From assembly GCA_000802095.1 (NCBI GenBank), contig JUEB01000017.1, forward strand, positions 248,001-312,000: DNA of 64,000 bases, read 5' to 3'. Below are positions 15,660-40,828 of this stretch, piece after piece (position 1 is the first letter of the stretch; every line of letters begins with the position of its first letter). The position numbers and the translations under genes are program-made. This stretch comes from Peptococcaceae bacterium BICA1-7 (lineage in GTDB: Bacteria > Bacillota > Desulfotomaculia > Desulfotomaculales > Desulfocucumaceae). The notes under the pieces are model-generated. The model had not been told where the DNA came from. It searched no databases and worked only from the letters and a program-made list of their open reading frames with translations.

Positions 15660-15845
15660 GCTGCAAAAGCAGCGCCCAGGCAGGTCTCCTGACTCACGGA
15701 TCAACACATGCCCCTCGCCTTCCCGGATTATAAAAACCCAGTGGCACTATGAGAAGCCGCTTCCCGTATACAGTGGCCGGACCGTCCGGGATTCTCACCC
15801 GGTTCCCTTTTCACCCCCGTGATTGCGGGGGAACCTGAACAGCGT
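15660..15845 (-). promoter_or_regulatory. Cobalamin (B12) riboswitch
   Basis: Read on the minus strand, the region contains the B12 box (AGTCAGGAGACCTGCCTG at 15677-15694). It also has the conserved core GGGTGAGAATCCCGGACGG and GCCACTG and a GC-rich helix at the 5' end (CCCCCGCAATCACGGGGG). The order and spacing fit the adenosylcobalamin-type aptamer. A terminator follows at 15582-15607, as expected for transcriptional control. The next gene on this strand is uspA, which is not a usual B12 target, so the riboswitch appears to be orphaned. Confidence 0.9.
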
Positions 15846-16025
15846 ATGAAATTATTAATATAATACCAGTTGAGGGGGTATTTGTCCAATAGTTTTAAAA
15901 ACACCCAACAGAACATACCCTTACTACCCTAATCGAATAAAAAAGAAGCCCCGGTAAAAAATATCTTACAGCACTGCATTTTAGGCATTTAATCAATGTA
16001 GAGGCAAAAAAAGGAGGTGACGGCA

Positions 16026-16262
16026 TTGACCGACAGGCAGGTTACCGTCTACACCACCCCTACTTGACCCCACTGCCGAACGGTGAAAGAGTTTCTTTCA
16101 CAAAAAGGTGTCAGCTATACTGAACACGATGTGGCCAAAGACCAGCGGGCCAGGGAGGATATGCTCCGCAAGGCAGGCCGCATGGCTGTTCCCACTATAA
16201 CAGTGGGCGACCAGGTAGTGGTAGGTTTCAACCCCAGTGAGCTGGAAAAGCTGCTGCACTAA
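16026..16262 (+). CDS. Selenocysteine-containing glutaredoxin-like protein (in-frame TGA)
   Basis: This small redox protein of 78 residues is interrupted by an in-frame TGA (16065-16067) exactly where glutaredoxins carry the first active-site cysteine: VYTTPT-U-PHC. The rest is a normal glutaredoxin/NrdH fold with a VPTI motif (MAVPTITVGDQVVVGF). Reading TGA as selenocysteine gives a UxxC active site; selenoproteins of this type (called Uxx-star glutaredoxin-like proteins) are known in anaerobes. The TTG start has an excellent Shine-Dalgarno (AAGGAGGTGA, 16011-16020). A hairpin 16 to 34 bases after the TGA (16083-16101) is a good bacterial SECIS candidate. No selA/selB/selC gene is in the window. 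The alternative is a nonsense mutation, but the intact downstream frame argues against it. Confidence 0.87.
16083..16101 (+). promoter_or_regulatory. SECIS-like hairpin
   Basis: A perfect 8-bp stem (GTGAAAGA/TCTTTCAC) carries a GTT loop whose first base is G. The loop G lies 24 bases after the TGA. Bacterial SECIS elements need a stem-loop with a G at the start of the loop at about this distance. It is within the coding sequence. Confidence 0.7.
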
Positions 16263-16428: not shown

Positions 16429-16746
16429 TTACAGAACACTTTCCAGTTTTCTGGCCAGCACGCTTTTCTGGGTGAAGCCCACCATCTGCTCCACCACCTG
16501 CCCGCTTTTGAATATAATCAGGGTGGGTATGCTCATAATACCGTATTTTCTGGCCAGATCCTGGTTATTATCCACATTGACCTTGGCCACCTTGACCCTT
16601 CCCTCAAACTCCTTGGTTATTTCCTCTATAACCGGAGCCAGACTCCTGCACGGGCCGCACCAGGGAGCCCAAAAATCAACCAGCACCGGCTTATCAGACT
16701 TAATTACTTCCTGATCAAAAGAGCTATCCACTATTTCAACGGCCAC
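16429..16746 (-). CDS. trxA: Thioredoxin
   Basis: This 105-residue classical thioredoxin has the active site WCGPC (in VDFWAPWCGPCRS), the cis-proline region MSIPTLIIF and the terminal GFTQKS segment. It reduces protein disulfides in the cytoplasm. It is one of two thioredoxins in the window (the other is at 39335-39664). It is convergent with the Sec-glutaredoxin gene. An FmdB zinc ribbon and a ferredoxin gene lie upstream on the same strand. Confidence 0.96.
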   Translation of the reverse strand: MAVEIVDSSFDQEVIKSDKPVLVDFWAPWCGPCRSLAPVIEEITKEFEGRVKVAKVNVDNNQDLARKYGIMSIPTLIIFKSGQVVEQMVGFTQKSVLARKLESVL

Positions 16747-16799: not shown

Positions 16800-16997
16800 T
16801 CAGCCTCCCCGGAGCCCGGATGAACCGGAGTTTCCTGTGGAACACCCCGACCCGGTCCGCACTGAGCAGCCCGTGATTAGCTGCTCAACCTCTTTTGTGC
16901 CGCACTCAGGGCATACAACCTTATCCCTCTCGGACATTCCGGTCAGAACTGCAAATTTATGCCCGCACTTGCTGCAGCGAAAATCGTATATAGGCAT
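16800..16997 (-). CDS. FmdB-family zinc ribbon protein
   Basis: This 65-residue protein has the FmdB-type zinc ribbon MPIYDFRCSKCGHKF, then VVCPECG, giving two CxxC pairs for one zinc. A short Gly/Ser-rich tail contains two more cysteines. The family is widespread and is thought to be regulatory, but its biochemical role is not settled. It starts 13 bases after the stop of the ferredoxin gene and is probably co-transcribed with it. Confidence 0.88.
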   Translation of the reverse strand: MPIYDFRCSKCGHKFAVLTGMSERDKVVCPECGTKEVEQLITGCSVRTGSGCSTGNSGSSGLRGG

Positions 16998-17010: not shown

Positions 17011-17178
17011 TTAACCACTTATGGCTCCATTGGGACAGGCAAAAACGCACTCCTCACAGTCATCGCACAGATCAGTATCAATAACGGCCACAGCCCCGTT
17101 AAGTTTTATGGCCCCCCTTGGGCAAATCTGTATACATATGCCGCATCCCTGACAAAGATCCCTGACCACAGTTGCCAT
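17011..17178 (-). CDS. 2[4Fe-4S] ferredoxin, small
   Basis: This 55-residue protein has two CxxCxxCxxxCP cluster motifs (CQGCGICIQICP and CDDCEECVFACP) and ends in NGAISG. That is the classical clostridial ferredoxin of about 55 residues carrying two [4Fe-4S] clusters. It is a low-potential electron carrier; its partner enzyme is not indicated by context. The FmdB gene follows directly. The ATG at 17178 gives the usual family N-terminus. Confidence 0.93.
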   Translation of the reverse strand: MATVVRDLCQGCGICIQICPRGAIKLNGAVAVIDTDLCDDCEECVFACPNGAISG

Positions 17179-17247: not shown

Positions 17248-18015
17248 TCAATTCAAATCGGCTTTCTTGAACAGCTGGATAAAGTTTAATATAAACTGAA
17301 GTTCCTTCTCATTCAGATTGCAAATCATATTCATCACCGACTGGACATTGGGGTGCATGAGCAGCTCTCTCAGCTCGGGATTCATCAGGCTGAGCATCTG
17401 ATCAACAGCCCCGGGCTCCATTATGAAGTAGCAGGGAGAGACCCCCATAACCTCGGCCAACTTCTCCAGAGTCTTCAGGGAGGGCTGTACCTTTCCCTGC
17501 TCTATCTGCCCCACCAGCCCGGCGGTAACCCCGGCCAGATTGGCCAGATGGGCCTGGGTAAGGCCGTATTCCTCCCTGAGAGATTTAAGCTTGTGACCCA
17601 GTGACCCCTCCTGGCTAATGAGGGCTGATGGAGGAACTCCAAGTCCCTCGGCTATTCTTTTCAGTGTGCTGAGGGCGGGATATACCGTACCCCTTTCAAT
17701 CTCACTGAGGTAGGAAATGGATATCTCGACCTTACCGGCCAGATCCTGCAGGGAAAGATTCTTTTCGCTCCTCATCAGCCTTATTTTATCCCCCAGGGAA
17801 AGGCCGGTCTCAGCCATGTCACCCTCTATAAGCTGGGCCTTGGAAACATTAAGGGCGGTGGCCAGCTTATCGATGGACTTAAGAGAGGGCCTCTTGGAGC
17901 CTCTCTCAATTTCGCTGAGGTAGGAAAGAGAAAGGTTGGCCCTCTTGGCCATATCCTGCAGGGTATACCCGCGCTCTTCCCGCAGGGCGCGTATATGGTC
18001 ACCCCTTACAATCAT
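17248..18015 (-). CDS. Transcriptional regulator with three tandem XRE-type HTH domains
   Basis: This 255-residue protein contains three successive Cro/C1-type helix-turn-helix domains: about 6-61, 72-127 and 138-193. The first two share the YLSEIERG recognition turn; the third has GLVGQIEQG. A short alpha-helical tail (about 205-255) may mediate oligomerisation. Three such domains in one chain would let one protein contact an extended operator. The gene is next to the PBP gene (60 bp away) on the same strand. A target is not evident. Confidence 0.9.
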   Translation of the reverse strand: MIVRGDHIRALREERGYTLQDMAKRANLSLSYLSEIERGSKRPSLKSIDKLATALNVSKAQLIEGDMAETGLSLGDKIRLMRSEKNLSLQDLAGKVEISISYLSEIERGTVYPALSTLKRIAEGLGVPPSALISQEGSLGHKLKSLREEYGLTQAHLANLAGVTAGLVGQIEQGKVQPSLKTLEKLAEVMGVSPCYFIMEPGAVDQMLSLMNPELRELLMHPNVQSVMNMICNLNEKELQFILNFIQLFKKADLN

Positions 18016-39334: not shown

Positions 39335-39664
39335 TTAAGTGTGCTTATCAAGTATGGTCTTAAGCTCCTTCTTTGTCCTGAAGCCTACGAATCTGTCAAC
39401 CTCTGAACCTCCCTTGAACATTACCAGGGTGGGGATGCTGTTTATCTTATACTCAGCCGGCACACCACGATTCTGGTCAACATTCACCTTGGCTACCTGA
39501 ATCTTACCCTGATATTCGTTGGCTATCTCTTCCACTACGGGAGCAATCATCTTGCAGGGGCCACACCATTCTGCCCAGAAATCCACCAGCACAGGGGTTT
39601 CGGTTGTAGCTAAAAAATCTTTAAAGGTCCCGTCATCCAGGTTTTTTATGAGGTCACTGGCCAA
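39335..39664 (-). CDS. Thioredoxin (second copy)
   Basis: This 109-residue thioredoxin has WCGPC (VDFWAEWCGPCKM) and INSIPTLVMFKGG. It closely resembles the thioredoxin at 16429-16746 in length and motif; the two are not identical. It stands alone with its own terminator. Confidence 0.95.
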   Translation of the reverse strand: MASDLIKNLDDGTFKDFLATTETPVLVDFWAEWCGPCKMIAPVVEEIANEYQGKIQVAKVNVDQNRGVPAEYKINSIPTLVMFKGGSEVDRFVGFRTKKELKTILDKHT

Positions 39665-40635: not shown

Positions 40636-40828
40636 AATCACCCCACAAGTGCCGTAAACCCCAAAGTTTCTTGAACCTTAGCTAAATAAGTGGGTGTCCT
40701 CCTGATTACTTATGTTACCTTCAATACAAAGGTCTACAGCCACAACCAGAGACCGGGCTCCCAATGTCAATGTGTTGGTTTAAAACTTCAAGGTGTCCAC
40801 GCACACAGTAGGGTAATTTGCTTTTGTA
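40636..40828 (-). ncRNA. ssrS: 6S RNA
   Basis: This stretch, read on the minus strand, fits 6S RNA: a long rod with closing stem (CCCTAC...GTGGGG), a large central bubble and a terminal stem-loop (ACCTT...AAGGT; CTCTGGTT pairs with AATCAGGAG). It contains CACCTTGAAG and AAGGTTCAAG, resembling segments of E. coli 6S RNA. It lies between aspS and tcdA, where Bacillus carries its 6S-1 gene (bsrA). 6S RNA mimics an open promoter and binds the housekeeping RNA polymerase. Ends are approximate. Confidence 0.88.

Follow-up and report, generated by a model that had tools for sequence, protein, structure and literature searches.

A conserved in-frame TGA as the probable selenocysteine codon of a small glutaredoxin gene in Peptococcaceae bacterium BICA1-7

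The question raised by this locus is whether a TGA lying within the frame of a short glutaredoxin gene ends translation or is decoded as selenocysteine (Sec). The gene is on the forward strand of the window, by which we mean the whole stretch of 64,000 nucleotides that was analysed, and its features are as follows.

16011..16020, forward strand: Shine-Dalgarno sequence AAGGAGGTGA, read directly; most of the relatives shown have a similar GGAGG-like stretch ahead of the start
16026..16262, forward strand: Sec-glutaredoxin coding sequence, with a TTG start, 78 amino acids when TGA is taken as Sec, and a TAA stop
16065..16067, forward strand: TGA codon of Sec14, which opens the UPHC motif; 58 distinct Sec genes have TGA in the same alignment column
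16074..16076, forward strand: TGC codon of the resolving Cys17, invariant in 40 aligned homologues
16083..16101, forward strand: bSECIS stem-loop GUGAAAGA-GUU-UCUUUCAC, within the coding sequence and in keeping with the constraints of the published model

The TGA at 16065-16067 is the sole in-frame TGA of this frame, and in a codon alignment its column holds TGT or TGC in 11 Cys homologues. Translated with TGA as Sec, the product (LTDRQVTVYTTPTUPHCRTVKEFLSQKGVSYTEHDVAKDQRAREDMLRKAGRMAVPTITVGDQVVVGFNPSELEKLLH) is a full match to the Pfam glutaredoxin family (PF00462, 72.2 bits, 3.9e-20), and its predicted model has a thioredoxin fold (pLDDT 89.5). The first-pass annotation had placed the TGA at the first active-site cysteine of a glutaredoxin (UPHC) behind a strong ribosome-binding site; coordinates, frame and motif all agree with this, and the Shine-Dalgarno sequence is found before the TTG at 16026. 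In a mechanical listing of open reading frames the gene appears just as a 59-residue fragment that starts at the in-frame GTG 16083, so plain gene calling misses or truncates it. Its description as hidden thus holds for standard ORF calling, but not for the curated NCBIfam selenoprotein models, which already score the protein above cut-off. We believe, with a probability of about 96%, that the TGA is a conserved selenocysteine codon and that the gene encodes a selenium-containing glutaredoxin; we infer the insertion of Sec at position 14 from the decoding machinery and the signals in the gene, both of which are present.

The selenocysteine reading of the TGA is supported by the genome itself (4.75 Mb, 33 contigs, 100% complete), in which the full set of sel genes proposed earlier as a check was found: a tRNA-Sec with anticodon UCA (selC; 68.4 bits, cut-off 47), selA (626 bits) adjoining selB (368 bits, counted with a neighbouring piece), and selD, which also has an in-frame TGA. 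SelB and Sec-tRNA(UCA) would bind the hairpin 16-34 nt past the UGA, and Sec would be put in at position 14. The same genome carries a Sec-like tRNA-Cys whose variable arm is long, and since selC* tRNA-Cys species with opal anticodons have been described (PMC7609411), one may ask whether a tRNA of this kind reads the UGA as Cys. Its anticodon is GCA, however, which reads UGC and UGU, and with a genuine tRNA-Sec(UCA) and a SECIS present we regard this reading as very improbable. Slighter still is the chance that the TGA is a true stop and that the 59-residue protein of the ORF listing is made separately from GTG 16083, as it would have neither the first strand nor the two active-site residues, 16083 has no Shine-Dalgarno sequence ahead of it, and the segment between the start and the TGA is conserved as protein (YTTPT). 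A nonsense mutation or sequencing error in an ordinary Cys glutaredoxin, which would look alike in leaving a lone TGA in an otherwise open frame, is the least credible of all and is refuted by the orthologues, since over 50 species, each sequenced independently, have the same TGA and conserve both the frame beyond it and the protein.

In a GTDB contig collection, all 21 homologues (from Desulfofundulus, Pelotomaculum, Desulfotruncus, Desulfovirgula and other genera) carry the TGA at this codon, and their frame is open on either side of it; the cultured Desulfofundulus australicus DSM 11792 and Pelotomaculum propionicicum are among the bearers of the TGA form. Disrupted frames after the TGA in relatives, which the first-pass annotation had named as evidence against the gene, are thus not the case. 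The TGA aligns with the Cys of homologues and the frame is conserved beyond it, as in a selenoprotein decoded by SelABCD. A homologue is present in 76 of 150 related genomes, and 57 of these 76 have at least one TGA form. selA was found in 54 of the 57, the other three being only 64-84% complete, while the three near-complete genomes that are without selA have Cys forms only; this co-occurrence is weak alone and serves as support, since selA-less genomes are few and selA was counted in homologue-bearing relatives only. Within the genome itself no second glutaredoxin of the same family and no Cys paralogue was found, the one other match being the neighbouring thioredoxin, which is weak and non-significant. 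A plasmid search returned homologues at less than 60% identity only.

Two Cys (TGT) versions, L073 (genome G094) and L106 (genome G045), keep a SECIS-like hairpin, and their host genomes still have selA. Because the hairpin is kept and both are nested in Sec branches, they look like recent Sec-to-Cys switches; the glutaredoxin tree has too few columns to resolve its deep branches well. On an IMG/VR contig that also has phage-like genes aboard, an IS110-like transposase adjoins the first part of another Sec-glutaredoxin gene belonging to this family, a part that includes the TGA and the SECIS (L121:13781-13896).

The SECIS-like hairpin had been claimed at 16-34 bases downstream of the TGA with a G at the start of its loop, and this is what is seen at 16083-16101. 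It has 7-8 bp, a loop of (A)GUU(U), a distance of 22 nt to the AGUUU loop and an energy of -8.5 kcal/mol, and it satisfies all the constraints of the bacterial SECIS model quoted in PMC13188914. An Rfam scan of the gene region gave nothing relevant for a SECIS family, its best match (12.6 bits) being to an unrelated sRNA on the opposite strand. The hairpin energy alone proves little, because it differs only modestly from dinucleotide shuffles (z about -1.3 to -1.7); against synonymous-codon nulls it is likewise unexceptional (z -1.4, p 0.095). A chance origin is nevertheless excluded, since TGA and hairpin recur together in more than 50 species.

The codons that form the hairpin are also almost invariant in their synonymous choice. 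In the main Sec group (51 distinct genes in an ungapped codon alignment, with pairs counted directly), Val is GTG in 51/51, Glu is GAG in 50/50, Leu is CTT in 48/51 and Phe is TTT in 40/45, whereas a little farther along Val and Gly are encoded by all four synonyms. Relative codon entropy averages 0.33 over codons 7-12 (numbered from the TGA as 1) and 0.85 elsewhere, with a Mann-Whitney p of 0.0007 that is a guide only, the species being related. Helix pairs are formed in 92% of main-group cells; shifting the 3' side by 1-3 nt lowers this to 40-73%, and in old Cys homologues, which have lost the hairpin, it is 40%. Folding relative to synonymous-codon nulls follows the same division, with a mean z of -1.23 for the Sec genes and +0.42 for all Cys genes. 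The pair 20-36, second from the stem base, is broken in 18 of the 51 main-group genes, and no double change at any helix pair was found within these 51. Between groups, position 20 is U in the main group and C in a second, diverged Sec group, where G36 restores the pair in 3 of 7 genes; C20-G36 against U20-A36 is thus a compensatory change between Sec groups. In the second group (L103 and L107-L112) the stem starts GCG-AAR, and some of the host genomes carry the main form too.

As to its family, the protein passes the curated cut-offs of GlrX_YruB (TIGR02196, 99 bits, cut-off 88.55) and, by a narrow margin, of Uxx-star (NF041212, 68.5 bits, cut-off 66), the family with which a comparison had been proposed and with which it shares Sec at the first position. 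It scores far under the cut-offs of UXX-star subfamilies 1-3 (40/72, 44/100 and 35/97) and, in contrast to these named subfamilies, keeps the resolving Cys (UPHC). It also falls outside Grx3 (TIGR02181, 66 bits, cut-off 90) and NrdH redoxin (TIGR02194, 56.2 bits, cut-off 85.75). Since the curated families fit and Sec-glutaredoxins of Moorella, Alkaliphilus and Geobacter were a recognised selenoprotein family by 2006 (PMC1794560), we regard the gene as a new addition to a known class, in line with the first-pass annotation, which had held the class not to be new. Desulfotomaculum reducens has no glutaredoxin in that selenoprotein survey (PMC1794560), whereas the TGA form is found here in many Desulfotomaculum/Pelotomaculum-type genomes. 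The find itself is therefore ordinary, the glutaredoxin selenoprotein family being already known from anaerobic bacteria, and confirming that ordinary ORF calling truncates the gene leaves present understanding unchanged. Its use lies in the set around it: 58 distinct Sec genes and 11 Cys homologues of one small enzyme make a deep, clean Sec/Cys set, which with its two apparently recent switches that keep the SECIS is useful for studying Sec loss, and also for calibrating bacterial SECIS models.

The closest solved structure, by both sequence and fold, is cGrx1 of Clostridium (Alkaliphilus) oremlandii (PDB 7c10, 7c12 and 7c13; PMC7642778), with a sequence match at 5.7e-20, a TM of 0.89 and 51% identity over the aligned structure. 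cGrx1 is a native selenoprotein of the same size and fold, with Sec first in its UPxC site, and it is described as glutathione-reduced and proposed as a reducer of MsrA (PMC7642778). It differs in belonging to another lineage, with about half of the residues changed, and its client cMsrA is a selenoprotein, whereas the MsrA of the genome here has Cys. Members of GlrX_YruB, which include Cp9 of Clostridium pasteurianum, share with the present protein a small fold of Grx type that lacks the features of a GSH site. Cp9 itself has Cys, and its gene is flanked by a TrxR-like gene on one side and a peroxiredoxin gene on the other (PMC3720550); neither of these adjoins the Sec-glutaredoxin gene.

From what is known of the family, the Sec14 selenolate would attack the substrate disulfide, and the mixed selenide-sulfide would then be resolved by Cys17. 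Re-reduction would most likely be by a thioredoxin-reductase-type flavoenzyme and not by glutathione. In the C-terminal part, the protein has GFNPSE, which resembles NrdH/Cp9 redoxins, at the place where glutathione-binding glutaredoxins have GG(C/D)D. A search of the genome for the GshAB family (TIGR01435), which covers neither every GshA type nor imported or other thiols, was negative, and a clear TrxR is present (393.6 bits, cut-off 343; G000:C9:216487-217380). Because of these three findings we favour a TrxR-driven Sec redoxin, with TrxR as the probable reductant. A classical glutathione-dependent glutaredoxin, the competing view of this step only, would agree with the Pfam Glutaredoxin match and with the described reduction of the similar cGrx1 by GSH; the score under the Grx3 cut-off speaks against it together with the GFNPSE motif and the GshAB result, and we consider it unlikely.

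For the clients of the TrxR-driven redoxin, two candidates were rejected. A NrdH role with class Ib ribonucleotide reductase does not fit, as the class I small subunit (PF00268) is absent from the genome, and a peroxiredoxin client on the Cp9-AhpC model is unsupported, as a PF00578 search of the genome gave just a thioredoxin and a TlpA/ResA-like CPPC protein, the latter adjoining a CcdA-like membrane protein. The genome does have an msrA-msrB pair, whose MsrA is without a C-terminal recycling Cys pair. Methionine sulfoxide reductase reduction is our best guess, because there is no class I RNR small subunit, no AhpC-type peroxiredoxin (PF00578) and no recycling pair in MsrA; MsrA and MsrB would thus be plausible clients, a suggestion that we make tentatively.

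The next genes downstream are all on the opposite strand.

16429..16746, reverse strand: thioredoxin (CGPC), convergent with the Sec-glutaredoxin gene (TIGR01068, 135.8 bits; in 8/22 loci)
16800..16997, reverse strand: FmdB-family zinc ribbon protein (TIGR02605, 66.4 bits; in 14/22 loci)
17011..17178, reverse strand: 2x[4Fe-4S] ferredoxin, from its cysteine pattern and family matches (in 14/22 loci)
17248..18015, reverse strand: HTH regulator with three XRE-type repeats, the repeat being seen in the translation (in 14/22 loci)

The gene had been said to sit beside thioredoxin, FmdB and ferredoxin, which is right as adjacency and wrong if taken as co-transcription, and an operon with these genes is rejected since they are convergent on the other strand. 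The thioredoxin is related to the Sec-glutaredoxin by function and is not an operon partner, and the conserved order of thioredoxin, FmdB, ferredoxin and XRE points to a common ancestry and perhaps to a common use. That the Sec-glutaredoxin, as the only glutaredoxin of its lineage, forms with this block a selenium-dependent, glutathione-free module whose donor and clients are unlike those of known glutaredoxins is an idea we hold to be doubtful.

Some further observations concern the surroundings and the tRNA-Cys mentioned above. A cobalamin riboswitch (132 bits) lies on the reverse strand at 15662-15853. After it come a strong hairpin resembling a terminator and, beyond that, a gene for a universal stress protein, which is an unusual target for such a riboswitch; the riboswitch recurs at a same-genus locus (L011:92-284). 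The window also contains, both on the reverse strand, a second thioredoxin (WCGPC) at 39335-39664 and a 6S RNA at 40636-40817 (79 bits). The tRNA-Cys (L002:1497-1592, reverse strand, corresponding to G000:C11:224813-224904) has a GCA anticodon, U73 and a long variable arm, exceeds the Rfam tRNA-Sec cut-off (48.2 vs 47), and fits the selC* tRNA-Cys class (PMC7609411). It is closely followed downstream by a gene for a YedE-family selenium transporter (TIGR04112, 475.7 bits).
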